Both the position numbers and the translations under genes were made by a program. The notes under the pieces were generated by a model, which did no database searches, was not told where the DNA came from, and saw only the letters and a program-made list of their open reading frames with translations. A stretch of DNA of 20,957 nt from a virus, in the IMG/VR virus record IMGVR_UViG_3300037961_005237, positions 1 through 20,957 of that record; one strand, 5' to 3'. Below, one piece after another: positions 1,458-19,041 of this stretch (positions within the stretch are counted from its first letter, which is position 1; each line of letters starts with the position of its first letter).

Positions 1458-1465
1458 TATTTATG
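1458..1465 (-). promoter_or_regulatory. Candidate T4-type late promoter box CATAAATA before gp8
   Basis: On the minus strand CATAAATA overlaps the TAA stop of the giant gene and ends about 18 nt before the gp8 ATG. It fits the NATAAATA form of the T4-like late promoter remembered for cyanophages. Late genes of this kind are read by host RNA polymerase with the phage gp55-type sigma. The spacing would give a very short leader, so the call is tentative. Confidence 0.35.
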
Positions 1466-4400
1466 TGCTATAGTCCTGGTATCTTAGACGGTTTGTTCTT
1501 CTAATTACCGGACCTGTTGTAATTCCAGAGTAACCTTTCCTGGTTCTGGCAACGTAATTGTGATTTTTGTTTCTATCCGAGAGTTGGAGTTTACCCCAAC
1601 TATATTCGCCATAGAAATCACTATATCCAAGACCTGGAATACTAAGGAAATCTTCGTGACTTGCAACACTAACGGTCACTCTAGTAAGAGTTGTAACGCC
1701 AAATCCAATTGCTGAAGTTGTTGCTATACCGACAGATGCAACTCTGTATACATTATCTATAAAGGTACTACCAATGCCAATTATGCCGGTTTCATGATTA
1801 TTGGTTTCATCAAGAGATGTGACACCAGATCCAACATTGGAATTAAAGACTGTAAAGTAATATCCAGTTTCTAATCCACTTCTTGATGTGAAATCTGTTA
1901 TCTCAGAATTTCTAAGAACAGAATTCTCTGGTATAACGAGGTCAAAAGTGAGTCCAATAGGAGCCTCAGTTGTTGATGTGGTTCCAATACCAGTGATTAA
2001 TCCAAAGTCACCCTCGTAAGAAACGATTGTGTTCTTTTCTTGTTCAATTGTTGGTGGCGAAATAAGAACGATAGGTGAGGATTGATTGGTATATCCAAAT
2101 CCAACCGTTGATCCAACAGAGATAGCAGAGACAGTTCCTGCAACAGAAACAGTTGCTGTTGCAGTCGCTCGTGCAGTTGTATCAAGACCAACTGGGGTTC
2201 CTATTGTAACCTCTGGTGGATTTGAAGAAGTATATCCAATACCACCATTAGAGATCACAAAGTTTTCAATTCCACCAGCATCGGTAACATGAACTGTGGC
2301 CGCGGCACCGACTGCAATTGAAGAATAATCAACCAAGGTGATCTCTCTCTGGAAATTCAGATCGATCGCACTCTCATTCTTCGCATTGAACAATGGTCTT
2401 GCGTTATCAACAAATACAACTGTAGAACCAATTCCTACCGACTTAATTAAGTTGGCAGTTGGGAAAATAATGGACTCATACAGTTCACGGTTCTTATAGA
2501 TGTATTGACCATTGACCACTCTATCTTCCATCTGCTTTGTCCAATCGACAGGCCTGTAAAGGGTACTGTCTTCACTCAGAGCAGGTCCATAGTAAACGTT
2601 GGTATCAACAGAACTAGAGGAGTTCAGTTCGGTAACAACTCTTGTATTTTGTTGTAAGAAACTTTGCTGACCAAGTGATGGATCCCATCCAATAGTTAGA
2701 TCATCACCAACCTTAATAGTATCAATAACTTCCTTATCAAGAACATCGGTTCCGCTAGTTCCTTTGTAGATCAGGAACTTAAGGGTGTCTCCTGCTTTAG
2801 GAGCCTCTTCGAAAGTTACATTACTACCACCACCGAATGGACCTCTTCTATTTTCAATAAAGAAGTAAGAAGAACCAGGAACCTGAAGAACGTCATTAAT
2901 GAAGATAATCAAAACGTCTTCAATGTTAACAAGTGAGCCAAGATCTGACTGAAGTGATAATTGTTGTCCAGAACGTGTGATTGGGAATGATTTTCTCTGA
3001 CCGTCAAATAGACTTGAGAAATCATCAAGAACTTCAATATCACCAAGAGTCCATGCGGAGAAAGAGTCTGTATTAATTTCAAGGACTTCGACTTGGAACT
3101 CTTTGAAATCAGAAGACGCTGTAGTTGGGATACCAGTTGAACCACCAGTTGGAATGGTTAGAATGTCTCCCAATCCATAACCAAATCCAAAGTTAGCAAG
3201 AGAGAAACTAATTACACTAGAACCTTGACCAACAGTAACGTTAATCTTAGCGCCAGTTCCACCACTACCAACAGAGTCAGAACTGTATTGGAGAGCGATA
3301 TCAGAATATGGAAGAGGTGGATCAATTATAACAACAGGAGGATTCGTAGAAGTATATCCAACTCCTGGATTTGTTACTGCAATGCTAACGATGTTTCCAT
3401 TATTAATGGCAGCGGTTCCAATAAATGCAATGCTTGGAGTTCCTGTGGAAGAAACTGCAACGCCAACATTAACGGTCGTTTGAATTCCGCTTCTATAACC
3501 AGAACCACTATTTCCGATAGAGATAGAGGAAACAGTTCCTGCTGCAGAAATAACAGCCGTGCCACCAGCACTAACAAGTGGTTGATATCCAAATCCATTT
3601 GTTCCTGCAACGGAAATGATGACACCACCAATAGGAACGTTCAAATCATTTGGATTATATACCGCTGTGGTGCTAATAGATCCTGTGAAAGTTACCGATG
3701 TAATTCCAGAGGTTTCGCTTAATGTATAATCGTTAGTTGCGCCAGGACCCTGTACGATTCCATTAACAAGAAGAATAGAATTGAATGTAGAAACACCAAT
3801 AACATTTGAACCACCAGAGGTTAAAGTATATGTGTCTCTAGTTCCAGAGAAGTTTTGAGAAATATCATCAAAGATATAGTTCTTTGTATAAGTTTCATCA
3901 GAACTACCAACCACTCCAGATCTCATAAAACTTCTACCACTGAACGTAGAAGACGATGTAATTCCAAGGAAGTCGCGTTCATCACCTGGTCCAACAGAAG
4001 TTCCAATCGGACTCTTGCCAAATGGAGCGTCAATGAAGCTCAGAGTGCTTCCTACGATGTTGTAATTGCCTCTAAGTTTGGTTATGGGTGTTCCACTAGA
4101 ATGTGCAACTAAAGTCGTTCCTGCGAGCGCACGAGTGAGTTTAATCGCATTTGTGCTTCCAATACCAACACCTTGAACCTTCATAATTTCATCACCAATC
4201 TTAACTGAGTCTCCTCCAAAGAATGATGTTATTCCAGAGAAGAATGCAATGTCTTGCGAAATGCTGAAGTCTCGTGATAATGATGTTGTTACAGAAGTTC
4301 CTACGATAGGAGTCTGAACGACATTATCCAAAGAAATTAGAACTTTATTGTTCTGTTTGGTAGATGTAATAACATGAGATGTGCCAATACCAACAGAGGT

Positions 4401-7400
4401 AAAATCAAGTGCGATTGGAATCGTTCTAAGAGCATTCTCTGCAGTTGCTGCAAGTTGAATCTTCTTCTCATCAACCTTAATAGCAAAGACAGTTTCTGGC
4501 AATTTATCAGTTGATCCAACACCAGGAATTGTTGTAGCTGCAATTCCAATGCTATTTGTACTAACACCTGAGGTAGTGTAAGTAACTTCTTCGCCACTTA
4601 CAAAGAAATGGTTTGGAACAAGAATGGTGCTAGCATCTACATCAATAATTGAATCACTAGAACCATCAAATACTCTCAAGAATACTGGATTATCTTTATG
4701 AGTCAGGAAGAAATCTTTCTTAACTTCAACTTCAGTTCCAGTGTATACTGAGAAGTTATCTTCAATTGCAATATTATTGAGTTGTACATTTTCACTAATA
4801 TCACTGGCTTCAGTATCTCTCAAAGCGTGAGTAAACGTCTTGACGTGAACATCGATTCCAGAATTTGGTGTGAATGTTAACTCGGTTCTATCACCAGTTC
4901 TAACTCCTCCCATGGTTCCAAGACCAGCGAAGGTTTCAATGTTTGCATACTCGGTCAAGTATACTTCATCATCATCGTCAATGATCAGAACCTCAGACAA
5001 TTGGTGTCTGTTGTTTGATGTATCAGAAACTTGAACGATACAGTAACCAGCATCAAATTCATTTGCAAAACTTGCAATTCCAACAGCAGTTGGAGAACCA
5101 GAAGAAGTAATTGTGGTTGACTTAGCAGTCAAACTACCAAATGCAAGATTAATCGTGCCGATGCCAATATAAGATTCAGTTGCAAGTCCAACCGTAATGG
5201 TATTGATTATGGTTGTTGTAATGCCTGGATCCGAATCGTAACTTACAACGACATCTGAACCCGACAAATATACTCCATATGTTCCCATTCCAATTGCAGA
5301 ATATGCGTCTTGAGAGTGAATACTCAGTTGACCATACTCAAGCAACTCAACTTCTGTGCCATCATGAATGAGATTAAGTTCGTCATACTCAATTCTACCG
5401 TCACTAGCCTCAGCAAGAACCAGTATCTTAGCGGATCTGAAGTTCGATGCAGTTGTTCCAATTCCAGATAAAGTTGCCAAGGTAACGGTGTTGCCACCAC
5501 CAACAGTGACACTTGAAGATGCGAGACTTACCAGAGATCCAGTAAATCCTGTTGAATCCCCGATTGTAGTGCCACCGATTGAAGAAACAACATCACCGAT
5601 TTGATCCATTGAATAGGATAATGTGATGACGTTGTAGTTGTTTAGTCTAGACTTAATTGGGAAGAATCTCAGTACAGAATCACTACCCTCAACAACAGAG
5701 TCAAATGAACCAAGGTCTAAGACAGGATCAAGTCTGCCATATTGGTTAATCATGGATATTCCACGGACAGTATCACTTAAAGTGGTAACCAACAACAGTT
5801 GTCTTTCTTTAGTAAAGAGTCTGTCCTTCACGTAAGTAATATACTTTTGCAATCTTGACTCAGAAATGGCTCTTCTAAACGCATCACTAAATGGAGTTGG
5901 TCTCGGGAGATTATTGAACAAACCACTAATATCATCAATTCTCAGAACTCTGTTAGTAATAGACTCTGAATAGTCTGTCAGAATTCTTGTGGTAAAGTTA
6001 ATTTCATCAGAGAACGCAACAACTCTATTAGTCAAGTAATTTTCGTGAACCAAGTCAAAGTTTGAGTATTTGTTAACGTTATACAAACTGTCAATTTTAA
6101 CTTCGATTAGTGTTCCGTCAATTGGAGTTGGAGTTAATTTAGTTGTAGGAACAGATTCTACTTGAAGATCACTAAACTTTTTAAATCCAGCAGTGTGATT
6201 CAAAGAGCTGACAACGTTGTTCCACTTTTCAAACGGAACTTGAGATTTAATTGAATATGAGAAGTTCTGATAGTATTCGTTATCATGAACTTTCTGTAGT
6301 TCATTGTTTAAGAATCCTGTTGTATATTCCCAACCGCTCTCAACAACGGAGAAATAATCTAATGAATACTTAGAATCAAAAGCGATTCTTTCTTTTACAA
6401 GGCCCTTAGATCCAGTAACCTCTGAAAGAATTTCAGTTCCAACCTTAAAGTCATTATCACTTTCAACAACCAGATACTTACTTTCAGTATCTAACTGATA
6501 AACTTTACCAACTGAAGTTCCATCAGTAATTTCATCTTGTTCTCTAAATCCTAAAGTTTCAAGAGTAGGATCAAATGTTGGGAAGAACTTTTCTGGAACT
6601 ATGACTCCAGATGAGTTACCAGTATTGTAGAAACCAGGTATTTCACCAGACTCAAGGAATCCTGCCATACTAAAGGTTACAATTCCAATTCCTCCAAGAT
6701 TTGGATGAGTTTTTGTAACTGTAAACAAGGAATAATCATAATTTGCAGAGTTATATCCTAAACCAGTAGATCCAACACCAACACTAGTATTTTCAACAAG
6801 TATTTTATCATTTACTGTGAATGGGAAAGTATTGATAGTGCTAAAGGAGTCTCTTAAAGTAACTGTTACATCTTGAGTGGTAGAATCAAAAGTCATGTTA
6901 GAAACTCTGATTCCGTTGGAATTTTCAGTAGGAATGAGAGTCGGAGTTACATTAGAAAGACTGAAAGTATTTCTAACAATATCTAAAGTTTCTTGATCTC
7001 TTACATAACGCAGGTCAACATCTGGAATAACTTTCTTGGTTCTTCCATCAACAACTACAATCTTTGGAGGAACGCTATAATTTTTGCCGAATGAGGTAAC
7101 TCCAACACGAGAGAAACCTGCAAGTTGCTCAATTCTAAGAATTTGAGGTATTTTAGTATCTGGTCTCAGTGTTCTATCAGCAGGATAGTCAAAACCAATA
7201 TTTTCAATTGTTGTTTTACTGATCTTACCAATCGACTTACTTGAAGCTTCAAGAATTGCTCCAGTTCCCGTAGAAGATGTTACAGTTGTAATACCTGGAA
7301 CTTTTGTATATCCCTTTCCTCTATTATTGATCAGAACATCAGTGATTGCACCATATGCAGTTGTAGAATTTGTCTTATAAGACAAAACAGATTCTGTAGA

Positions 7401-10400
7401 ATTATAAGTATCTCTTTCAGGATATTCTGGTAAATTGTATGTAAAGGTATTATCAGAAGTTTTAATAATACTATATTCACCATCAAAGAGACTATCCCGA
7501 ACAATGATTTCATTATTTAAAGAAACATCAGAATCATTTACAATTTCTCTATTAACCAGTGGGTTGTCACTGATGTTTAGTGGAATAAGTTTGTAGTAGA
7601 GAACCGATGGTGTAAACTTATCAACACTCAGTTTAATGGTTGCATCTGTGGTTACACCAACAGTTCCTGTTCTTGTAACATCGAATGTTGCATCATTTCC
7701 ATTTGTATCATATAGATTGTTAAAGTTTGAATCTGTATAAAGTTCAAACTTAAATGCAGGGAACTTGATTCCACTCTTATTGTATGAAAGAGAAACATCA
7801 GATAGATCAAAAGTTACATTTGAATCTCTATAAAGTTTCAGTGGAGGGTTGACAGGGAAGATAGTTCCGCTAGAAGAACTTGTGATAGAAACAAAAGAGG
7901 GAACTGCTCTGTTTGCATTAAACTTGCTTTCGGTAAGTTTAATGTTATTTCTATCAACGACATAAGCATAATACTCTTTGTCGCTTGCAAGGCCTCCAGA
8001 TGGAGATGAGGATGAATGTATTACCTTTTGTCCTGTAACTAAACCATGATTTGCGAGATAAAGATTATCGCTACCTGTGGTCACATTTCCAGAAGTAAAT
8101 GCGATTCCAGTGGTAACCAGTTTTCTATTTGGTGCGTTATATTTGATTGCAAAAGAAGTTGAGATTGATGGATTAATATCGACAAATACAGTATCATTAT
8201 TAAACAATCCATGTGTTCCCGCTGCAGAAACTGTGACCAAATTCTTTTCAACATTTCCTGTTATTGTTTCTGGATAGGAAATTTTGAAACTATGATGTGA
8301 ACCAGTTCCTAAACCAACAAAGTAAAGAAGTTCCTGATGAGAGGTTGTTGCAGCTGCTCCAACAAATACACCAGTTGTTCCCAATCCAACTCTAACTGTA
8401 GAAAGTCCGATAGAATCTTCGTCCAGTTTTGCGACAAAAAGGAGTGAGTGGTTTGTCAGAGGAATTGAAGAACCACCACTAACAGTAGCAACTCCGATTG
8501 TATCTCCAGTATTTGTTTGATATGTCAGTGTATCTCCAGTTTCAAATCTATGATTTGGCAGATAAATTGATCTAGTTGGTACAAAGTATTGAGTTATCCC
8601 TGCTCCTGGATTTGAGAAGTTAAGAGTAATTCCAATTCCAACTCCAGAATTAGTTCCAAGACCCACGGATTCCAGTGGATCAAAATAATATTCTCTATTT
8701 CTATTTCTATTAAACGCAGTTGTGTATCCAACATTTACTGTAAAACTTCTTGGTTGAGATTCTACAAACGCTGTGGCTGTGTGAGCAGCAGAAACTGTAT
8801 CATTTACTGCTCTCAGAACTCGAACTCTAGAAGATACTCTATCAACATTTAAAACTTTAACTTCTTCTGAATCGACTTTAAGGATATCATTTTCTCGGAT
8901 GAAGTCTGGATTCAGGTTTCCAAACAGTGAGAAATAAGTTACTATTCCAGTGGTATTTGAGTTGGATAATGCCTTATCTAATCTATACTTGCTTGTAGTG
9001 ACGCCGATCTGATAAGATCCTTCAAGGAGAGATGAAGTTGTCGATAGACCAGAAATTATAACAGTATCAGCATTTAAGAATCCATGCTTTCCAGTATTGA
9101 TTCCAATAAAGTTTCCATTAATTCCTACTGGATAAAATTCTACTCCATCCAAGTTGGAACTAGAGACAGATACTGTTCCTACACCAACACCACTAACTTT
9201 GTGAACCTTAGCCGCAGCAAAGAATCCATCAGTTTCATCTTGTTCAAAAACAACTTTGTCGTTTACTCGATAATCTGAACCACCAGTGATAATTCCAACA
9301 GAATCTACAGATCCTTTTTGAACGTGTTTAATGATGGAGTCTTGACTTACATATTTGTATGATTGACTTACATATTCATAACCACTATTTTCACCTCTCA
9401 GAGAATATGGGTAGGAATTTCTAATCCAATCAGAAGCGTTCAAATCAACATCATCTTGATTTGATTTTCTTCTATAATTAAACGGATTTGGTTTAGAGTT
9501 GAAGTTCTCTCCAACTAAGTATGGGAACTGTGGTTTTTTGAAGTTCTTAAATACTCCGTCAGATGATGGTGTCAGATCAAAGGTGGAGAAATACGCATAA
9601 GTTCCGTTTGGATATTCTGGTGTAATACAGAATCTTCCATTGTTTTGATCAAGAACAGCTTCATCAGTCGAATTTGCCCAAGAGAAATCTTCAATAAAGA
9701 ACTCTTCTGGGAATATGCTCAGGGGTGGCCTATTTGGTTTAATATCAAGAGAATATCCAGACTTTAATTGTACGATTGTTCCACCAGATTTTGTTGAATA
9801 TCCAAATGGACCATAGATCGGGTGTCCATCATAAGCCCATCCGATAATTGGTGAGTGATTATCATTGTTGATTCTTTCTACACCATCAACAAGGTTGAGG
9901 TCTTTTTTACCGTAAAGGATTCTTCCACCCTGATCAGTTGCATATACAACTTGTCTCAAACTTCTTGGCGCATATACATATGAACACTGAAGTTCATTTT
10001 GAATATTAGTTCCTGGAGAAATGAATACATCATCTTCAGTGATGTTAGTCAAATTCTTGGCAAATTCATTAATTCTCCAAGATTGTAAGTTTACGTTAAA
10101 TACTGCTCCAGATCCTGCAGGTTCTACAGTGATTGAGGTTGTAGAAACACCATATCCAATACCAGCTTGATTGATGTTTACTGATTTAATTGCGCCTTGT
10201 ACAGTTTGACCTGATGCATTGAGTCCTGGACCAATTTCAGGAACAAGAATTGCACCAGTTCCATTTCCTTTATCAGATACAATTAGTCTTGGTGGAGAGT
10301 TATATCCAAATCCAGAGTTATCTACGATGACATCTACGATCTTACCCTGGGCGTTGACAATGGGAGTTAACTCTGCGTCCTGACCAGAAAGAAAGTCTAT

Positions 10401-13400
10401 GGATGGCGATCTCTTAAAATTAATTACTTCCGAAGATCCATATCCAACACCAGAGTTTTCTAAATGGATAGAGGTTATTTCACCTCTTACTATTGGTTGT
10501 ACAACTGCTTGATATGTCTTTCCTTCTACTGAGGATATTCCAACAGAACCAATGAGTTCTACTTTGATGTCTGGATAGTTGAATGTATGCGTTCCTACAC
10601 CAACATTTGTGAGATTTTCATACTGTTTTGTCTTGTAGTAAAAATCATTCGTTGTTGTGCCAAGACCAACAACAGAGAGTTTAAATGAATCTCTATCCAC
10701 TACAGTTACGTAGTAATCACTAGTTGTTGAAAGTCCTGTGACTTCTGTGCCATCTACAGAGTAAGATACTATTTCACCACTCTTGAAATCGTGATTAGGA
10801 ATTGAAATTGTGTTTAGAGCTGTTATGATTCCAACAGTTCCGCAAGTTCTTTTTTTGTTCTGATATCCTTCACCAGAATCAACCAAAGTGATCGTATTAA
10901 TAATCGCTTTTCCATTTAAAGATCGTAAAGCATGATATCCTATGCCATAATCAGATATGGAAATCGTATTAATACCAGAAATTGAATCATTCAGTTTTGT
11001 GTGAAGTTTAACCGTTTGTGGATCTACTACAGAAACAAAATATGTCGCATCTGTGGAAAGTCCAGATAATGCCTGCTTTCCAAAAGTACGATATATAATT
11101 CTTTCTCCATTCCTGAATTTGTGATGCGTGGAGAATCCGATTCTACCAACAGAAGAAGTTGCTGAGCCAATTCCAATAGAACCAATACCCGTCGAATTAA
11201 AAGTAACTTCATGAGGAACTACGGATAACTTTGCTTCAGCAACTGCATTTCTAGTAGGATTACCACCAGAAATTTTTACTTTAGGAACATCCAGGTAATC
11301 AAAACCAGGATCTAAAACCCTAACTTCATCGAATTGACCGTTTACTGCTAAAAATCCTGTGGCACCAGTACCAATAATTGTTCCAGCATCATTTTCGTCT
11401 TTAATTCTTAAAACTGGAGGATTAACAACATCGTAATTTTTTCCTCCAGAAACTACATCAATACTATTGATTCTTCCATAATATACAAAATTCTTTGATT
11501 TATAATTAAGGACTTCAACCCCGTTAATTAAAATTCCATTATACCCCGATGTAGTCGGATGTTTTACACCATCATTGACTGGATTTGCAACTTCTCTTAA
11601 GAGTTTTTGAGGTTTGATACTCTTGTTTTTGAAGTTGTATTTTTCAATGGTGTTTGAATTTATAGTAACAATTGGAAGTGATGAAGATACTTTTTGGAAA
11701 ATGTTATTATATAAGTTAGAAGGGCTCTTCGCCAACTTGATGTTGTTTTCATCGACTCTCCTTATAAAGTATAATCCCTCATCAAAACCAAGTGTTGTTA
11801 CAATATCTCCATCTGCATTTTTCTCTGGAGTGTAATAAACTGCATCTCCAGTGTAGTAGTTGTGGTCAATTCTATCAGTAATTTTAAAAGTATCTTCTTC
11901 GGTACGATATGTTCCCGAAAAAGCAACTTTTTGAGTTTTTGGATTGATTTTAATATCAGAAAAGTTAGGAATCGAAGGTGCTGCTACTAAGTTTTTACCA
12001 GATTCAGAGTAAACATTTTGTATATCAGTCGTAACTTCACTGAGATTTTGGTGAATATCTGAATCTACTTTTGATAAAGTTCTTGTAACTTTAAGAATAG
12101 TATCTGGGTTGGCAACACCAAAGCCTCTAATCAGACATGTTGTTTCATTGAACACATCATTAACGATGAAGTTTTCAATAATTTCTTCACCAGTATCCGT
12201 TAAGTTTAGTTTATCGCCAATTTTCAGAATATTAAAATCCTTAGTAACAAGTCTGAAAATACCGTTAGCGTCGTCAACGAGAGTTAATGATTCAACTTCA
12301 TAATTCTGAGCAGTATTAAAGAACCAATTATTTGATCTTACATCTTCTCCGATTCTACCTAAAGACTTAATTTTGATCCTAGAACCAATTTTTTGATTAT
12401 GAGTGTTGTTAGGAACTTCTAAATCATTGAGAACAGATCTGATTTTGACTCTAATTCCATCAGTTTTTCCAAGCCCTGCAGAATATGCAAATGTATTTTG
12501 ATCAATTTCTGCGCTATCACCAATCACTGAAGTTACACCATCAACCCCAAAGAACTGGTTTACTGTTTTTGAAGTATAAGATACAACACCAACGGTGGAA
12601 TTTTTGTAGATTACCGACAAAGTTCCAGCACTGGGGAAACCCAAAGTTGAATCTACATCAATAATAGTTTGTCCAATTCCAACTTCACCGATTACCTGAG
12701 TTTTTGCATGTGTAGAGAACTGGTCATATAGTAAGTTTGAAGTACCTGTATTCTGAATAAAAGATCCATCAATGCCTAATCTATAGAATACGTCTGTTAG
12801 AATACCAACAGTAATTCTTTCTACGCTAGCAACAGGTGAAGATGCTCTAGAAATGTTCTCATATGCATCTTGAAAAAGTGTATTATTGACTAAATCGAAC
12901 GGATCTCCAGAAACTGCTTCTACAATAATACTTCTTTGCTTCTTATAATTTGCAAAAGATGGAGAAATTACGTAATCTCTTGGACGGATGATCTCTACGT
13001 TTTCTCCGTAAAGAGCCTTGAAAAGAATTTTGAAGGATACATCAGTTCCTCTTGTAGAGTAAAAATCCTTAGAATGGCGAATAAATTGTGGTTGATTCAG
13101 ATCTGCATCCAAATCTCTGGTTTGAAGTCCAGGTAAAACTTGTTTTTTAACTTTTGTCAGAAACTCATTCAAAAATAAAACACTCAGGTTTTCAACTCTT
13201 GCATCTTCTGAGTGAGAATCTGATGAGGAAGTCGAAAATACTAAATCTTCCGTGTCATCAGGGTTTCTAAATGAAGTAATTCCACTAAAACCACGAATAC
13301 ATCCTGTAAAACTATTGGTCGTGATTCCAGTATATGTAATGATTTCATCGTTAATACGAATCAAACCATAGTTCTGAGGAAATCCATCAGTATTATCGAC

Positions 13401-13643
13401 AGAGATAGTGCTGTCAATACTATCAACACTTGAAGAGAGAGATGTGAATCCTACAGTATTTCCACATTCATTTAACTTAATGTAAGAATCAATATTTTCT
13501 ATCAGGTCAATTGGTCCACCCTGATATTCTTGACCTCTATAATACTCAGTCAAAAACTCCCCAATCAGAGGAAATTCGTCCCTTACGTATGCAGGTAACT
13601 GACTCTTAACGATTTTGTTAAACTGAACTCTCTTTTCCGCCAT
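1461..13643 (-). CDS. Giant baseplate wedge protein, gp7-type core with huge repeat-rich insertions (4060 aa)
   Basis: One uninterrupted frame of 4060 codons between gp6 and gp8 homologues, the place of T4 gene 7 (wedge initiator that forms a heterotrimer with two gp6). Residues 1-55 (VRDEFPLIGEFLTEYY) and 150-240 resemble the T4 gp7 core near its C-terminus. DFYSTRG at 193-199 and LYGENVEI at 211-218 correspond to T4 DFYSTKG and LYNEEVEI. A second core piece at about 2457-2490 (SYSIKS, VPFEKW with W2474, HTAGF) corresponds to T4 YYVMKIKS..PSSRW..HPVGF. Between and after these lie beta-rich repeats: GxGY..PP modules, at least eight NH..SG(E/D).V.Y...VD...KL modules, tail-fibre-like NG-x-x-Q-x-P modules, GF..IRG modules, and a YHYH-like domain (D1272GHPIYGPFGY). 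Only about seven cysteines were seen and no signal peptide. T4 gp7 is 1032 aa. The gp7 identity comes from short motif matches and position; the cyanophage annotation 'VrlC-like structural protein' may cover this family (weak memory). The start MAEKRVQF follows gp6 by 29 nt. Confidence 0.85.
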   Translation of the reverse strand: MAEKRVQFNKIVKSQLPAYVRDEFPLIGEFLTEYYRGQEYQGGPIDLIENIDSYIKLNECGNTVGFTSLSSSVDSIDSTISVDNTDGFPQNYGLIRINDEIITYTGITTNSFTGCIRGFSGITSFRNPDDTEDLVFSTSSSDSHSEDARVENLSVLFLNEFLTKVKKQVLPGLQTRDLDADLNQPQFIRHSKDFYSTRGTDVSFKILFKALYGENVEIIRPRDYVISPSFANYKKQRSIIVEAVSGDPFDLVNNTLFQDAYENISRASSPVASVERITVGILTDVFYRLGIDGSFIQNTGTSNLLYDQFSTHAKTQVIGEVGIGQTIIDVDSTLGFPSAGTLSVIYKNSTVGVVSYTSKTVNQFFGVDGVTSVIGDSAEIDQNTFAYSAGLGKTDGIRVKIRSVLNDLEVPNNTHNQKIGSRIKIKSLGRIGEDVRSNNWFFNTAQNYEVESLTLVDDANGIFRLVTKDFNILKIGDKLNLTDTGEEIIENFIVNDVFNETTCLIRGFGVANPDTILKVTRTLSKVDSDIHQNLSEVTTDIQNVYSESGKNLVAAPSIPNFSDIKINPKTQKVAFSGTYRTEEDTFKITDRIDHNYYTGDAVYYTPEKNADGDIVTTLGFDEGLYFIRRVDENNIKLAKSPSNLYNNIFQKVSSSLPIVTINSNTIEKYNFKNKSIKPQKLLREVANPVNDGVKHPTTSGYNGILINGVEVLNYKSKNFVYYGRINSIDVVSGGKNYDVVNPPVLRIKDENDAGTIIGTGATGFLAVNGQFDEVRVLDPGFDYLDVPKVKISGGNPTRNAVAEAKLSVVPHEVTFNSTGIGSIGIGSATSSVGRIGFSTHHKFRNGERIIYRTFGKQALSGLSTDATYFVSVVDPQTVKLHTKLNDSISGINTISISDYGIGYHALRSLNGKAIINTITLVDSGEGYQNKKRTCGTVGIITALNTISIPNHDFKSGEIVSYSVDGTEVTGLSTTSDYYVTVVDRDSFKLSVVGLGTTTNDFYYKTKQYENLTNVGVGTHTFNYPDIKVELIGSVGISSVEGKTYQAVVQPIVRGEITSIHLENSGVGYGSSEVINFKRSPSIDFLSGQDAELTPIVNAQGKIVDVIVDNSGFGYNSPPRLIVSDKGNGTGAILVPEIGPGLNASGQTVQGAIKSVNINQAGIGYGVSTTSITVEPAGSGAVFNVNLQSWRINEFAKNLTNITEDDVFISPGTNIQNELQCSYVYAPRSLRQVVYATDQGGRILYGKKDLNLVDGVERINNDNHSPIIGWAYDGHPIYGPFGYSTKSGGTIVQLKSGYSLDIKPNRPPLSIFPEEFFIEDFSWANSTDEAVLDQNNGRFCITPEYPNGTYAYFSTFDLTPSSDGVFKNFKKPQFPYLVGENFNSKPNPFNYRRKSNQDDVDLNASDWIRNSYPYSLRGENSGYEYVSQSYKYVSQDSIIKHVQKGSVDSVGIITGGSDYRVNDKVVFEQDETDGFFAAAKVHKVSGVGVGTVSVSSSNLDGVEFYPVGINGNFIGINTGKHGFLNADTVIISGLSTTSSLLEGSYQIGVTTSKYRLDKALSNSNTTGIVTYFSLFGNLNPDFIRENDILKVDSEEVKVLNVDRVSSRVRVLRAVNDTVSAAHTATAFVESQPRSFTVNVGYTTAFNRNRNREYYFDPLESVGLGTNSGVGIGITLNFSNPGAGITQYFVPTRSIYLPNHRFETGDTLTYQTNTGDTIGVATVSGGSSIPLTNHSLLFVAKLDEDSIGLSTVRVGLGTTGVFVGAAATTSHQELLYFVGLGTGSHHSFKISYPETITGNVEKNLVTVSAAGTHGLFNNDTVFVDINPSISTSFAIKYNAPNRKLVTTGIAFTSGNVTTGSDNLYLANHGLVTGQKVIHSSSSPSGGLASDKEYYAYVVDRNNIKLTESKFNANRAVPSFVSITSSSSGTIFPVNPPLKLYRDSNVTFDLSDVSLSYNKSGIKFPAFKFELYTDSNFNNLYDTNGNDATFDVTRTGTVGVTTDATIKLSVDKFTPSVLYYKLIPLNISDNPLVNREIVNDSDVSLNNEIIVRDSLFDGEYSIIKTSDNTFTYNLPEYPERDTYNSTESVLSYKTNSTTAYGAITDVLINNRGKGYTKVPGITTVTSSTGTGAILEASSKSIGKISKTTIENIGFDYPADRTLRPDTKIPQILRIEQLAGFSRVGVTSFGKNYSVPPKIVVVDGRTKKVIPDVDLRYVRDQETLDIVRNTFSLSNVTPTLIPTENSNGIRVSNMTFDSTTQDVTVTLRDSFSTINTFPFTVNDKILVENTSVGVGSTGLGYNSANYDYSLFTVTKTHPNLGGIGIVTFSMAGFLESGEIPGFYNTGNSSGVIVPEKFFPTFDPTLETLGFREQDEITDGTSVGKVYQLDTESKYLVVESDNDFKVGTEILSEVTGSKGLVKERIAFDSKYSLDYFSVVESGWEYTTGFLNNELQKVHDNEYYQNFSYSIKSQVPFEKWNNVVSSLNHTAGFKKFSDLQVESVPTTKLTPTPIDGTLIEVKIDSLYNVNKYSNFDLVHENYLTNRVVAFSDEINFTTRILTDYSESITNRVLRIDDISGLFNNLPRPTPFSDAFRRAISESRLQKYITYVKDRLFTKERQLLLVTTLSDTVRGISMINQYGRLDPVLDLGSFDSVVEGSDSVLRFFPIKSRLNNYNVITLSYSMDQIGDVVSSIGGTTIGDSTGFTGSLVSLASSSVTVGGGNTVTLATLSGIGTTASNFRSAKILVLAEASDGRIEYDELNLIHDGTEVELLEYGQLSIHSQDAYSAIGMGTYGVYLSGSDVVVSYDSDPGITTTIINTITVGLATESYIGIGTINLAFGSLTAKSTTITSSGSPTAVGIASFANEFDAGYCIVQVSDTSNNRHQLSEVLIIDDDDEVYLTEYANIETFAGLGTMGGVRTGDRTELTFTPNSGIDVHVKTFTHALRDTEASDISENVQLNNIAIEDNFSVYTGTEVEVKKDFFLTHKDNPVFLRVFDGSSDSIIDVDASTILVPNHFFVSGEEVTYTTSGVSTNSIGIAATTIPGVGSTDKLPETVFAIKVDEKKIQLAATAENALRTIPIALDFTSVGIGTSHVITSTKQNNKVLISLDNVVQTPIVGTSVTTSLSRDFSISQDIAFFSGITSFFGGDSVKIGDEIMKVQGVGIGSTNAIKLTRALAGTTLVAHSSGTPITKLRGNYNIVGSTLSFIDAPFGKSPIGTSVGPGDERDFLGITSSSTFSGRSFMRSGVVGSSDETYTKNYIFDDISQNFSGTRDTYTLTSGGSNVIGVSTFNSILLVNGIVQGPGATNDYTLSETSGITSVTFTGSISTTAVYNPNDLNVPIGGVIISVAGTNGFGYQPLVSAGGTAVISAAGTVSSISIGNSGSGYRSGIQTTVNVGVAVSSTGTPSIAFIGTAAINNGNIVSIAVTNPGVGYTSTNPPVVIIDPPLPYSDIALQYSSDSVGSGGTGAKINVTVGQGSSVISFSLANFGFGYGLGDILTIPTGGSTGIPTTASSDFKEFQVEVLEINTDSFSAWTLGDIEVLDDFSSLFDGQRKSFPITRSGQQLSLQSDLGSLVNIEDVLIIFINDVLQVPGSSYFFIENRRGPFGGGSNVTFEEAPKAGDTLKFLIYKGTSGTDVLDKEVIDTIKVGDDLTIGWDPSLGQQSFLQQNTRVVTELNSSSSVDTNVYYGPALSEDSTLYRPVDWTKQMEDRVVNGQYIYKNRELYESIIFPTANLIKSVGIGSTVVFVDNARPLFNAKNESAIDLNFQREITLVDYSSIAVGAAATVHVTDAGGIENFVISNGGIGYTSSNPPEVTIGTPVGLDTTARATATATVSVAGTVSAISVGSTVGFGYTNQSSPIVLISPPTIEQEKNTIVSYEGDFGLITGIGTTSTTEAPIGLTFDLVIPENSVLRNSEITDFTSRSGLETGYYFTVFNSNVGSGVTSLDETNNHETGIIGIGSTFIDNVYRVASVGIATTSAIGFGVTTLTRVTVSVASHEDFLSIPGLGYSDFYGEYSWGKLQLSDRNKNHNYVARTRKGYSGITTGPVIRRTNRLRYQDYST
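2019..2282 (-). repeat. GxGY repeat block near the C-terminus (residues about 3788-3875)
   Basis: Two copies are visible: NGGIGYTSSNPPEVTI and VGFGYTNQSSPIVLI, separated by an alternating A-T-A-T-V strand and VSAISV. The block is closely similar in layout to the 3342-3500 block, especially GVGYTSTNPPVVII there, so a fairly recent duplication is plausible. Confidence 0.55.
3144..3620 (-). repeat. GxGY repeat block (residues about 3342-3500)
   Basis: This is the densest run of the GxGY motif: NGFGYQPLV, GSGYRSGI, GVGYTSTNPPVVII and FGFGYGLGDIL within about 160 residues. They alternate with G-T-G-A-rich stretches and I-x-V strands. The regular spacing suggests a beta-solenoid or stacked beta-hairpin fold. 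Similar repeats recur throughout the giant protein and once in gp8. Confidence 0.6.
6144..6356 (-). other. gp7 core, second half (residues about 2430-2500)
   Basis: Contains YYQNFSYSIKSQVPFEKW (W2474), then NNVVSSLNHTAGFKKFSDL. The order SYxxxIKS - P-W - H..GF - I/L matches the T4 gp7 stretch after DFYSTKG (RSYYVMKIKSNLPSSRW...HPVGF) as I remember it. In T4 the two pieces are about 140 residues apart; here they are about 2240 apart. Flanking sequence (VESGWEYTTGFLNNELQKVHDNEYY before it) is not repeat-like. Confidence 0.55.
7031..7353 (-). repeat. GxGY repeat block (residues about 2097-2204)
   Basis: Contains NRGKGYTKVPGIT with a following STGTGAIL strand, IGFDYPADRTL, and FGKNYSVPPKIVVVDG. 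The copies are more diverged than those near the C-terminus. The block ends roughly 220 residues before the second gp7 core piece. Confidence 0.5.
9579..10001 (-). other. YHYH-like domain inside the giant protein (residues about 1215-1355)
   Basis: The stretch contains CSYVYAPRSLRQVVY (C1220), IIGWAYDGHPIYGPFGY (D1272), DQNNGRFCITPEYPNGTY (C1339) and AYFSTFD. DG.PIYGP.G with a following NGR...TPEYP.GTY segment is the pattern I associate with YHYH-domain proteins, found in marine bacteria and in structural proteins of marine phages. The literal YHYH is not present: the corresponding place reads GTYAYF. Its function in virions is not known to me. Flanking GxGY repeats end just before it and differently composed segments follow, so it looks like a discrete inserted domain. 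Confidence 0.6.
10074..10346 (-). repeat. GxGY repeat block (residues about 1100-1190)
   Basis: Contains NSGFGYNSPPRLIV with GNGTGAILV, then AGIGYGVSTTSITV with GSGAVFNV. The block directly precedes the YHYH-like domain. Confidence 0.5.
11225..11460 (-). repeat. GxGY-type repeat pair (residues about 728-805)
   Basis: GGKNYDVVNPPVLRI followed by IGTGATGFL, then PGFDYLDVPKVKI. This is the first appearance of the family in the protein, about 500 residues after the first gp7 core piece. The copies keep the aromatic Y and the P-x-V/L strand but not the second glycine. Confidence 0.45.
12924..13643 (-). other. gp7 core, first half (residues 1-240) with a small beta insertion
   Basis: Residues 1-55 are helix-prone (FPLIGEFLTEYYRGQEY) and resemble the FEAFCEAYIQYLSDGYG stretch of T4 gp7. 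Residues about 82-121 form an inserted repeat with DGFPQNYG, NDEIITYTGI and IRGFSG. Residues 150-218 resume the core with FLNEFLTKVKK and DFYSTRG (193-199). The segment that follows, GDPFDLVNNTLFQD, resembles the region after the same motif in T4 gp7 (DLVGQTIYTA). The comparison is with T4 gp7 recalled from memory, not an alignment. Confidence 0.6.
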
Positions 13644-15613: not shown

Positions 15614-16015
15614 TTATCGAGTTGGCAGCAAGAGAAATTCTAATTGTTGCGGTGGAACATCAATTCCGATGATTCTGTATAAAATTGTCGCATTGAATTC
15701 ATTGGCATCATAATTTGGTTCAATGATGACATCAATCAATTCGACTCTTGGCTCATGATTTCGAATGGAATTTTCTATTTCATCGCGTATGGCGAGTGCT
15801 GATACATCATCAACGATTTCAAAAAGTAACTTGGAGACGTTAGATCCAAAATTTGGATCAAAAACCTTCTCTCCAGGTGATGTAAATACAATATTTCTAA
15901 TTGAACGGGCAATTGCGGTCGCATTAGTAAGCGCAATCAAGTCATCATTCAGAGGATTAATCTGAAATGACATACTAATATCTTTAAATGCTTGACTGAC
16001 CCGTTGTAACGGCAT
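15614..16015 (-). CDS. 25: Baseplate wedge protein gp25 (GPW/gp25 family, 133 aa)
   Basis: Matches T4 gp25 (132 aa), the conserved sheath-initiating wedge component of contractile injection systems. ARSIRNIVFTSPGEKVFDPNFGSNVSKLLFE (around residues 33-63, cited in parts: RSIRN, PGEKVFDPNFG, LLFE) corresponds to T4 RSIKN...KGSRPFDPEFG...LFE. ENSIRNHEPRVEL corresponds to T4 ESAVRNYEPRI. The start at 16015 (MPLQRVSQAFKDI) is preferred over an internal Met at codon 15 because the first residues look like other cyanophage gp25 proteins; no strong ribosome binding site decides it. It is the first gene of the gp25-gp6-giant-gp8 operon. Confidence 0.95.
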   Translation of the reverse strand: MPLQRVSQAFKDISMSFQINPLNDDLIALTNATAIARSIRNIVFTSPGEKVFDPNFGSNVSKLLFEIVDDVSALAIRDEIENSIRNHEPRVELIDVIIEPNYDANEFNATILYRIIGIDVPPQQLEFLLLPTR

Positions 16016-16258: not shown

Positions 16259-16948
16259 TTACTCCTGATCAGTTAAATCAGAACTTTTTTCGGGGTTACT
16301 ATCCCGCTCTTTTGCAGTTTTCCAAAAATATTCGTCTTCACGACCCATTCCAAGGCGTTCAAACCCATTTTCAACCTGATAATACTGTGTCGAGACCTTA
16401 AAATCGGGCATTTTGGGGTCAACAGGTGTCAAACTATTGTCATAGATACGCATTCTATTGTTAGGATACAGTGCATATTGACCATTTTCGAGCTCAATCA
16501 AGTTATGAGACTTATGTTCAGCAGGATTTTCACTTGTTGCATAGTCAACCACCTCAGGATCCTGATGATAGTTATCGATTGTACAAATGTATGTACCTTT
16601 TTGAATACCAAAGTCGCGTGTGTACAGTTCATAGTCCATCGATCCAATAAACTGCTTAGTGACAGCCACAACACCGTAATCCATGCAATTCCAGAATTGT
16701 AGGTTAGGTAGGTCCATATCAGGACTTGGCGTCTCAGGGGCGCTTACAAAGGCGCTGATGGGCAGTTTATCGTACATAGCAGCATACTCTGGTAAGTATG
16801 TCTCAAAATAAAAAGTGCGCCCAGGTATCGACTTACACGACACCCAAACGCCCTTTACAAATTCACCATGACCAAATTGATGGTCGGTGAGATATTCTTT
16901 TCTTACCCATACCTCAACGGCAGGTAGATTACAAATTAGTGCAGACAT
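16259..16948 (-). CDS. Conserved cyanophage hypothetical protein (229 aa)
   Basis: Function unknown. The N-terminus (PAVEVWVRKEYL, GHGEFVKGVWVS, FYFETYLPEYAAMYDKLPISAF) resembles a family I remember as recurrent in marine T4-like cyanophages and annotated only as hypothetical. The middle holds a TIDNYH motif and a D-Y-x-Y-T-R-D segment, then SHNLIELENGQYALYPNNRM. The C-terminus (about 190-229) is charged and low in complexity (EDEYFWKTAKERDSNPEK). It has no signal peptide or membrane helix. It lies between the 47-aa basic gene and the 63-aa gene with short gaps, so it is probably co-transcribed with them. The start at 16948 gives the conserved MSALICNLP start; no strong ribosome binding site is seen. 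Confidence 0.8.
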   Translation of the reverse strand: MSALICNLPAVEVWVRKEYLTDHQFGHGEFVKGVWVSCKSIPGRTFYFETYLPEYAAMYDKLPISAFVSAPETPSPDMDLPNLQFWNCMDYGVVAVTKQFIGSMDYELYTRDFGIQKGTYICTIDNYHQDPEVVDYATSENPAEHKSHNLIELENGQYALYPNNRMRIYDNSLTPVDPKMPDFKVSTQYYQVENGFERLGMGREDEYFWKTAKERDSNPEKSSDLTDQE

Positions 16949-17133: not shown

Positions 17134-17904
17134 TCAAATAATACGAGTCTTTTCGTGACCGACGCGAATCCGAGGATCGCACCAGATTTCCATGCCTTCT
17201 TCCTTGGCATCAAGACAGAATGAGACATCCTCACCACACATGTCTTGAACACTGCCAGATTCAAAGACTTGCATCTTCGGAGCAAACCAAGGATATTCGA
17301 GATTTTCGAAGACACCGTTCTTAATCATCACCCATCCAAAACCAGTGTAGTCTACCGTGAATGGTTTCTTACGCTTGGACATTGTTTCGACAGTTTCGTG
17401 ATTCATCACTCCACCATTCTTACGGAAATCATCCTCTTCCAACCAGTGTGCGACAGAAGTTGTGTGACCATCCTCAGTAGCATACCAACCTGCGACAATT
17501 TCACGCTCGGTTCCATCTTCACTGAGAGCCAGATCACAGAGTTGCCAGAACTTGTTTGTATCAAAGACAATATCATTATCAATCCACAACTGATAATCAT
17601 ACTGCAACTTACCGTCCCAAGGAGTTTGCTTCGGACCCCTCAGAACATTTGCTCCGAGAACCTTGCATCGTGCAAAGTTTACCATTGAAGAATAGTCTTG
17701 AGAGATCTGAATACTCATACCGTTCTGTACCATATCAAAGCACAGTTGTACAAAGTTCTTCAGAAAAATATATGAACATCCACGTCCAGGTAGGCAGAAT
17801 ACAATTGCCTTACCTCGCATCCGTTCCTTTACTGCGTCCAAATCCCATTCTTTCTCGGGAGCCTTTTTGGGCGCAACTGTCTTTACTGTAAATCCTTTAG
17901 CCAT
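17134..17904 (-). CDS. Glycosyltransferase, GT-A fold (256 aa)
   Basis: Probable nucleotide-sugar-dependent glycosyltransferase. After a basic N-terminal extension (1-35), AIVFCLPGRGCSYIF starts the fold. The segment YQLWIDNDIVF carries D109-N110-D111, a DxD-type metal and sugar-nucleotide site at the end of a strand. FTVDYTGFGWVMIKNGVF (about 180-200) and GEDVSFCLDAKEEG (E225, D226) fit the acceptor-side acidic motif, and H250 (VGHEKT) is the usual metal-binding His near the end. No membrane helix, so it is a soluble enzyme. The acceptor could be phage protein, DNA or a host glycan; nothing in the sequence decides. A sigma70-like promoter lies directly upstream. Its first 11 bases (ATGGCTAAAGG) are the same as those of the 47-aa gene downstream. 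Confidence 0.8.
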   Translation of the reverse strand: MAKGFTVKTVAPKKAPEKEWDLDAVKERMRGKAIVFCLPGRGCSYIFLKNFVQLCFDMVQNGMSIQISQDYSSMVNFARCKVLGANVLRGPKQTPWDGKLQYDYQLWIDNDIVFDTNKFWQLCDLALSEDGTEREIVAGWYATEDGHTTSVAHWLEEDDFRKNGGVMNHETVETMSKRKKPFTVDYTGFGWVMIKNGVFENLEYPWFAPKMQVFESGSVQDMCGEDVSFCLDAKEEGMEIWCDPRIRVGHEKTRII

Positions 17905-17928: not shown

Positions 17929-17957
17929 ATTCTATCAGTGTATATAGTCCCTGTCAA
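17929..17957 (-). promoter_or_regulatory. Sigma70-type promoter for the glycosyltransferase gene
   Basis: Minus strand: TTGACA (17957-17952), a 17-nt spacer, then TAGAAT (17934-17929). The -35 box is perfect and the -10 box matches 5 of 6. The -35 overlaps the stop codon of the upstream 66-aa gene and the predicted start site lies about 20 nt before the ATG at 17904. This suggests expression by unmodified host polymerase. Confidence 0.6.
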
Positions 17958-18154
17958 TACGAGGAATTGTTCTGTGCTTCTCTATTCACAGTCACTTCCT
18001 CATATGACAAATCCTCAAGAGTATAATCAGTTTGCATCAAACCAACCATGCCTTTGAGGGTGTTCCATGTTACGTTGAAATCCTCCTCTTTTATGCTATG
18101 GAACAAGCAACGGTCCTTCGCATAAATGTGGAATAATTTTTCCTTTGGGCTCAT
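17954..18154 (-). CDS. Conserved small cyanophage protein (66 aa)
   Basis: Function unknown. MSPKEKLFHIYAKDRC, LFHSIKEEDFNVTWNTLKGMVGLM and TDYTLEDLSYEEVTV make a soluble helical-looking protein. I remember close relatives (LKGMVGLM..DY...DLSYEEL) as recurrent hypothetical proteins in marine cyanophages. The start is well supported by a GGAGG ribosome binding site 6 nt before the ATG. The stop overlaps the -35 box of the glycosyltransferase promoter. Upstream lies a long AT-rich leader and a hairpin region. Confidence 0.8.
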   Translation of the reverse strand: MSPKEKLFHIYAKDRCLFHSIKEEDFNVTWNTLKGMVGLMQTDYTLEDLSYEEVTVNREAQNNSSY

Positions 18155-18275
18155 TTTTTTCCTCCGGAAATTTTTTTCATATTTTCTAAAATTTTTTTTG
18201 TTTTATATATCGAACGCGAATTGTCACCTCTGTAGGTTAGGGTAGTTAGGCGTTTTTAAACCACGCCCGCCGCCC

Positions 18276-18318
18276 GATATAAACGAACCGCGCCAAACAC
18301 TGTGGTTACGGTTATATC
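18276..18318. other. Imperfect 13-bp stem-loop
   Basis: The left arm is GATATAA-A-CG-AACC (18276-18289) and the right arm is GGTT-A-CG-G-TTATATC (18304-18318). That gives 7 bp, one A/G mismatch, 2 bp, one bulged A and 4 bp around a 14-nt loop. It lies in the gene-free stretch 18155-18374, about 120 nt upstream of the 66-aa gene and next to a second hairpin. It has no T-tract on either side, so it is not a classical terminator; a leader structure, processing site or protein-binding site is possible. Confidence 0.5.
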
Positions 18319-18334
18319 AGAGTCTAACACATAA

Positions 18335-18362
18335 GGGGCAGAGTGTCAACAACTGCTGCCCC
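18335..18362 (-). terminator. GC-rich hairpin after the 49-aa gene
   Basis: GGGGCAG (18335-18341) pairs with CTGCCCC (18356-18362), with a further AGT/ACT pairing inside and one bulged G. It starts 12 nt after the stop of the 49-aa gene on the minus strand. The bases that follow on the minus strand are TTATGTGTTAG, only partly T-rich. It could terminate or protect the 3' end of the small-gene transcript. Confidence 0.5.
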
Positions 18363-18783: not shown

Positions 18784-18812
18784 ACTATAAGATCTCGGAG
18801 GGATATTGTCAA
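18784..18812 (-). promoter_or_regulatory. Sigma70-type promoter of the 57-aa gene
   Basis: Minus strand: TTGACA (18812-18807), a 17-nt spacer, then TATAGT (18789-18784). This is a consensus -35 and 5 of 6 for -10. The predicted start is about 22 nt before the ATG at 18754. It would be read by host RNA polymerase early in infection. Confidence 0.75.
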
Positions 18813-18832: not shown

Positions 18833-19033
18833 AGGGTCGCTGATATTTTTTGCGTGTCAATCCCTGGAAAAACTTATGGGCGGGGTCTTGACATTTTCGC
18901 GGCGAGGTGATAGCCTGCTCGCTTAGATCACAAGACCTGAGCACATTTAATAAGGCAATAAAATCACTCCACAGATACTACACAGACACCACAGATATAC
19001 CACTAAGTAACTTCAACATAAAAAACGAAAGTA

Positions 19034-19041
19034 TATTTATA
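19034..19041 (-). promoter_or_regulatory. Second TATAAATA box in the gene-free stretch
   Basis: Minus strand CTTTATAAATATAC. An exact late-promoter box about 280 nt upstream of the next minus-strand gene. In DNA this AT-rich one or two chance matches in the window are expected, and the distance to a gene is long, so confidence is low. Confidence 0.25.

Follow-up and report, generated by a model that had tools for sequence, protein, structure and literature searches.

Lambdoid nut/boxA and qut sites are short linear motifs located near the start of a transcript that leads into a long module. In phage T4, the oriF origin corresponds to the uvsY site, which adjoins gene 25. Passages of PMC3016281 describe oriF and oriG as sites of about 100 bp with a promoter and an A+T-rich unwinding element, indicate that oriE apparently depends on an early-mode promoter, and state that the several origins of T4 share no common motif. 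A single theta origin was predicted for cyanophage Syn9, according to a passage of PMC2984593 that does not give its location. The PeSL cassettes of T4-like phages, in which an early promoter overlaps a terminator stem-loop, are dense in shuffling regions as cited in PMC4503421; that source also reports a raised virion read density at one place of the S-PM2 genome, which its authors read as terminal redundancy from packaging.

The window analyzed here, a virus record of 20,957 bases, has its relatives among the T4-like cyanophages (family Kyanoviridae), abundant ocean viruses in which the early/late switch and the start of replication are poorly known. In a gap around which all genes with recognized relatives lie on the minus strand, we found an element in which a stem-loop carrying a host-type sigma-70 promoter is followed by a non-coding leader and by a box whose distance from an A-run is nearly fixed; the element pointed toward the baseplate wedge gene gp25 in each of the 101 loci in which that gene was found. 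Like T4 oriF and oriG, the element consists of a promoter and some 100 bp of non-coding sequence with AT-rich DNA, and its sigma-70 promoter recalls oriE, which apparently uses an early promoter; unlike the T4 origins, it is single copy and has a conserved box and no skew minimum. Its stem-loop, with the −35 box in the loop, recalls PeSLs in overlapping a predicted early sigma-70 promoter, whereas its single copy, its fixed place, the conserved box downstream, and the lack of a T-tract set it apart from them. With the T4-type late promoter TATAAATA it has in common an AT-rich site located a short way ahead of a conserved A and of structural genes, but TATAAAT was missing from that place in all 102 elements compared, some of which were TATA-less. 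The element would resemble nut/boxA and qut sites as a short linear motif near a transcript start ahead of a long module, but no conserved hairpin was found at it. A single, precisely placed, and widespread signal of this kind offers one exact address for testing both the early/late switch and the start of replication, and the element is a possible marker for finding T4-like cyanophages in metagenomes.

Distribution and organization of the conserved element

Judging from the sequences compared, the element is widespread, rather than universal, in T4-like viruses of picocyanobacteria. Alignment of the gap to four named relatives gave 25 consecutive identical columns, with a mean column identity of 61%, and the exact 19-mer TAACCTACAGAGGTGACAA was present in at least 120 viral stretches. 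BLAST with the region of the window as the query yielded 242 phage records (244 places), one of them a Streptococcus phage, while a 66-nt composite yielded 287 phage records (288 places) and a 40-nt composite 305 records (306 places), 303 of which had cyanophage names, the remaining two being a marine virus and a Cutibacterium phage. For scale, a tblastn search with gp25 gave 458 cyanophage-named records (373 Synechococcus, 61 Cyanophage, and 24 Prochlorococcus); duplicate GenBank/RefSeq entries occur in both this set and the 303-record set, which are compared as totals and not record by record. A degenerate pattern detected one copy of the element in each of 7 genome records. Passages of PMC2984593, PMC4503421, PMC2864571, PMC3016281, PMC3037559, and PMC2993671 contained no description of the element, which may have been described elsewhere, and a literature text search for the string CCTAACCTACA returned only papers unrelated by title.

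The box varied among named phages. The form ACTACCCTAACCTACA was followed by a different tail in S-ShM2, S-SSM4, P-SSM2, DSL-LC02, S-E7, ACG-2014d, and Syn2; S-SRM01 showed the form ACTACCCTAAACTATA and Syn9 the form CCTTCCCTAACCTACA, and SynMITS9220M01 and S-SCSM1 retained CCTAACCTACA without the preceding ACTAC. The box of S-PM2 was more diverged, and its form matched 31 records, 25 of them cyanophage named, including the three of S-PM2 itself. Among the matches listed, the site was mostly unannotated, and it lay under an annotated hypothetical protein in P-TIM68, S-E7, S-P4, P-SSM7, and Syn1. The exact 19-mer also occurred in four contigs of bacterial and archaeal genomes. Two of these had the bare 19-mer only, close to our own chance estimate of about two, and the other two, filed as gammaproteobacterial and Woesearchaeota metagenome-assembled genomes, carried the whole element together with cyanophage genes (in the latter also gp25 and gp6) and therefore look like mis-binned phage DNA.

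The sample used for the profiles comprised 120 viral contigs chosen by the exact 19-mer (at least 120 matches), so that identity at −4 to +14 is built in for them, and 13 named phages, in 9 of which (L126 to L134) the box was selected for, since the BLAST query contained it. Three rows that failed the anchor pattern (L006, L055, and L087) and the copy of the window itself (L005) were dropped. This left 131 loci. The nonredundant ones numbered 113; among these, 240 nt of upstream sequence was available for 102, and the full 400 nt for 101. Evidence free of this selection comes from the four named relatives, which were found with a 1,101-base region, from the profile columns outside −4 to +14, and from two genomes taken by accession, Syn9, which has the box, and S-PM2, whose box is diverged.

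Positions are given relative to window position 18235, which is position 0 on the minus strand. In the direction of that strand, the element consists of the sigma-70 promoter, an A-poor stretch, the A-run, and the box ACTACCCTAACCTACA with a clade-specific tail (here GAGGTGACAA). The GC-rich stem-loop at 18335 to 18362 (arms 18335 to 18341 and 18356 to 18362) holds the −35 box in its loop, lacks a T-tract, and gave a fold z score of −1.97; for the corresponding segment (−130 to −84) in 101 relatives, the mean was −1.48. The promoter (18321 to 18349, minus strand) has TTGACA at 18349 to 18344, a 17-nt spacer, and TAGACT at 18326 to 18321, with TG preceding the −10 box, and matched the sigma-70 pattern (TTGACA, 16 to 18 nt, TATAAT) at 10 of 12 positions. 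The transcript would be expected to start at about 18315 to 18312. Scores of at least 10 were obtained for 66 of the 102 nonredundant relatives, compared with 5 of 102 reverse complements and 6.4% of shuffles, and in 44 of those 66, the −10 box ended at −100 to −79. Two more near-consensus sigma-70 promoters on the minus strand, each with 11 of 12 matches, flank this one (TTGACA-17-TATAGT at 18812 to 18784 and TTGACA-17-TAGAAT at 17957 to 17929). In the 212 nt upstream of the element, at least two copies of the word TTCGT were found in 28 of 102 relatives compared with 14 of 827 random segments, an iteron-like repeat confined to a subset of relatives.

Downstream of the promoter, a stretch of variable length (18263 to 18300, minus strand) is poor in A and rich in G and T and then in G and C. 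Its composition in 101 relatives (−65 to −28) was 0.11 A, 0.21 C, 0.36 G, and 0.32 T, and G-rich hexamers were enriched in it over the rest of the loci (GCGGGC 96-fold and GCGGCG 57-fold). A CAGT-like word comes between the promoter and this stretch; the loose pattern used for it occurred within the searched range in 125 of 131 rows. There follows a T/A step with an A-run at 18252 to 18262 (minus strand; here GTTTAAAAA, consensus TATATAAAA). In the profile of the 113 nonredundant loci, AAAA occupied −21 to −18 in 95 to 99%, and the A-run started at −23 to −21 in 94 of 102. The distance from the promoter to the box was variable (median −91, range −153 to −65, in the 61 of the 102 relatives that matched at 10 or more of 12 positions), whereas that from the A-run to the box was nearly fixed; the box therefore probably lies outside the contacts of the promoter itself.

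The conserved box AACTACCCTAACCTACAGAGGTGACAATTCG is located at 18217 to 18247 (minus strand). The portion of it shared most widely is CCTAACCTACA, often preceded by ACTACC, and the tail is clade specific. A role as an anti-16S site (GAGGTGA, judged by eye only) was set aside, other clades having AAGGTTCCC, AAGTGTTAC, or AAACTTT there. Just past the box, at 18185 to 18215 (minus strand), the DNA is AT rich and least stable, the minimum of the mean stability profile of 101 relatives falling at +20 to +50 (nearest-neighbor parameters); this stretch could be the ribosome-binding region of the next gene and nothing more. The leader had a mean fold z score of −0.47 in 101 relatives, and no conserved, covarying secondary structure was found in it, either in those relatives or, for the hairpin described below, in 12 aligned ones, as would be expected of a linear motif.

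An inverted repeat at the predicted transcript start

The initial annotation had described a hairpin at 18276 to 18318 in an otherwise empty gap and had offered two roles for it, a leader structure of a glycosyltransferase operon or a small RNA. The geometry was as described, with arms at 18276 to 18289 and 18304 to 18318 forming 13 Watson-Crick pairs around a 14-nt loop, one mismatch (18311/18283), one bulge (18308), and no T-tract, and the surroundings are indeed a GC-rich island (GC content of 0.55 at 18240 to 18319 versus 0.25 to 0.27 at 18140 to 18239). The gap is not empty, however, since it holds the sigma-70 promoter and the strongly conserved box. On the minus strand, the 5′ arm of the hairpin contains the predicted start of the sigma-70 transcript.

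Under the same search rules for the window and its shuffles (loop of 3 to 20 nt, at most one mismatch and one bulge, and at least 13 pairs), the window contained two such hairpins, this one included, compared with 0 to 8 (mean, 2.5) in 20 dinucleotide shuffles. The minus strand, on which the promoter lies, folded with a z score of −0.35 and the plus strand with one of −2.14. In 12 aligned close relatives, 67.8% of the hairpin cells still paired, in comparison with 28 to 52% for slid controls, an excess to be expected because the structure came from one of the aligned sequences; the percentage paired was reached by 126 of 500 column shuffles and the covariation score by 111 of 500. The compensatory changes proposed as a check were accordingly not found beyond chance in these relatives. 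RNAalifold predicted no pairs for the hairpin in the same alignment, and Rfam covariance models gave no match at the gathering score and four weak and implausible ones at a relaxed threshold (E up to 10).

The hairpin looks like a chance inverted repeat at the predicted transcript start and is not a conserved feature; as a functional RNA it was rejected on its chance frequency and on a covariation within the range of the shuffles. A regulatory role for the hairpin, or for a small RNA that includes it, is very improbable, even with the pairing as described, the plus-strand fold z score, and the pairing above that of slid controls on its side. A free small RNA also finds no terminator-like site in the gap, no Rfam family, and no conserved RNA structure. 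The leader proposal is supported for the region, which has a sigma-70 promoter upstream and is followed in 120 of 131 loci by the gene of the 256-amino-acid protein on the same strand, but it is not supported for the hairpin as its functional structure.

Position upstream of the structural module

The first gene after the element encodes a 66-amino-acid product of unknown function (phrog_2626; 17954 to 18154, minus strand), with GGAGG at 18165 to 18161. It is followed on the same strand by the gene of the 256-amino-acid protein (17134 to 17904; phrog_1574, function unknown, with a weaker match to a phrog annotated as glycosyltransferase) and then by gp25 (15614 to 16015), with which the structural module starts. 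The element is located at the boundary between the variable early genes and the genes for building the virion. In 101 of 131 loci, a gp25 match followed the element on the same strand, at a distance of 0.87 to 7.2 kb, and in none did one precede it; each of the 30 loci without a match had less than 2.2 kb of downstream sequence. The gene of 66 amino acids was downstream in 103 of 131 loci, and an upstream gene of 56 amino acids was found in only 31.

The distance from the box to the first gene varied, and the first gene itself differed among clades, both of which speak against control of one gene. In nine annotated records, the genes right after the element differed, but every one of the nine had gp25, or else a baseplate wedge gene similar to it in size, farther on. 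What the element marks is therefore the entry to the structural module, not a particular gene. In Syn9, it lies between gp90 and gp91, upstream of gp25, near 53.5 kb. The freshwater phage DSL-LC02 has a gene of about 1 kb on the opposite strand (6174 to 7175) directly after the element.

Possible functions of the element

The polarity toward gp25, together with a promoter, a leader lacking conserved structure, and a box that is nearly fixed, leads us to favor, tentatively, a single-copy cis-acting site that lies between the variable early region and the structural module and acts on transcription into the latter. Host RNA polymerase would start near 18313 early in infection and transcribe the leader; the box would then act in cis, either as unstructured RNA once transcribed or as DNA once unwound, and a phage or host factor would recognize it, so that transcription enters the structural module or is timed for it. 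Its mode of action might be analogous to that of a linear nut/boxA- or qut-like site, which would require an antitermination factor. In agreement with this reading, gp25 followed in 101 of 131 loci while the upstream gene was kept in only 31, one copy was present in each of the 7 genomes, and the promoter was found in 66 of 102 relatives versus 5 of 102 reverse complements. Against it, 36 of the 102 lacked a sigma-70 match at a score of at least 10, and the opposite-strand gene of DSL-LC02, the first annotated one after the element, lowers our confidence in it and raises that in a DNA site of another kind.

The main rival reading, which we consider possible but somewhat unlikely, takes the element for a replication origin of T4-like cyanophages that would function in the same way as oriF or oriE. 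The sigma-70 transcript would invade the DNA near the box and the AT-rich stretch, and its processed 3′ end would prime the leading strand. The single copy per genome record would fit an origin, as would the promoter followed by about 100 bp of non-coding DNA with the least stable part at +20 to +50, which resembles the description of oriF and oriG, the position near gene 25, which resembles that of oriF, and the single theta origin predicted for Syn9. A promoter with a downstream AT-rich stretch, as in an R-loop origin, was thus present, and that stretch may be the ribosome-binding region of the next gene. The element did not coincide with a minimum of the detrended GC skew, which came within 10 kb of it in only 1 of 7 genomes (DSL-LC02); in 5 of 7, a maximum, of opposite sign, lay 3 to 18 kb upstream, whereas a bidirectional origin would be expected to give the reverse. 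RNA-DNA hybrid energetics, computed with nearest-neighbor parameters, were only weakly favorable, with a slight preference for the hybrid on the sense strand at −40 to −30 and −20 to +10, the antisense being more favored at −10 to 0; the element ranked first among regions in 7 of 92 loci and fell within the top 1% in 30%. Skew and hybrid energetics give the origin no support, nor do they decide against it. The T4 origins, moreover, share no motif according to the passages of PMC3016281, whereas the box is conserved here. It is rather unlikely that the box marks a cyanophage origin that is started by a host sigma-70 transcript and recognized sequence specifically, unlike the motif-less origins of T4.

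The box may also be a DNA site with no connection to transcription. A site that serves packaging, recombination, or some other protein binding and is used a single time in each genome, which we regard as unlikely, would account for the single copy and the near-fixed box, and both the opposite-strand gene of DSL-LC02 and the virion read density peak of S-PM2, read as terminal redundancy in PMC4503421, are in line with it. That peak, however, is placed in the same source immediately downstream of a region at 5.8 to 15.3 kb, whereas the S-PM2 element lies near 25.1 kb; a packaging site thus has no positional support from it, and a site of this kind would leave the gp25 polarity and the upstream promoter unexplained. 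Quite unlikely, too, is a variant late promoter in which TATATAAAA serves as the −10 of a gp55-type RNA polymerase and the box is the initially transcribed sequence. The T/A step and A-run are so placed that a T4-type −10 would put +1 at the conserved A of AACTACCC, and structural genes do follow. Nevertheless, TATAAAT occurred at that place in none of the 102 elements, 11 of 102 were roughly classed as TATA-less, and in the intergenic DNA of 7 genomes (our own ORF mask), TATAAATA was strand biased (42:3) while TATAAAAA was not (12:13). A canonical T4-type late promoter TATAAATA was rejected on the same absence in 102 of 102, TATAAATA being the motif with a strand bias in these genomes. Of the 11 TATA-less elements, 7 had a sigma-70 promoter with at least 10 of 12 matches, in favor of the transcription reading; that the box is kept in them is by construction, because the loci were chosen by it.

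Only 13 of 101 loci had TATAAATA between the element and gp25; the copies numbered 15, and 11 of these lay no more than 42 bases from the gp25 match. The minus strand of the window has only two exact copies, at 19041 and 18832, both upstream of the element. Also upstream, beyond a gene of 57 amino acids, a GC-rich spot at 18884 to 18937 contains an imperfect inverted repeat of 18 nt with TTGACA on the plus strand inside it. The protein of 229 amino acids encoded at 16259 to 16948 (minus strand) matched phrog_3704, annotated as ferredoxin (E = 2.3e-114), and had no Pfam match; the ferredoxin label is doubtful. After gp6, the minus strand contains a single open frame of 4060 codons (window 1461 to 13643), which occupies the place of the gp7-type baseplate wedge initiator genes of the relatives.
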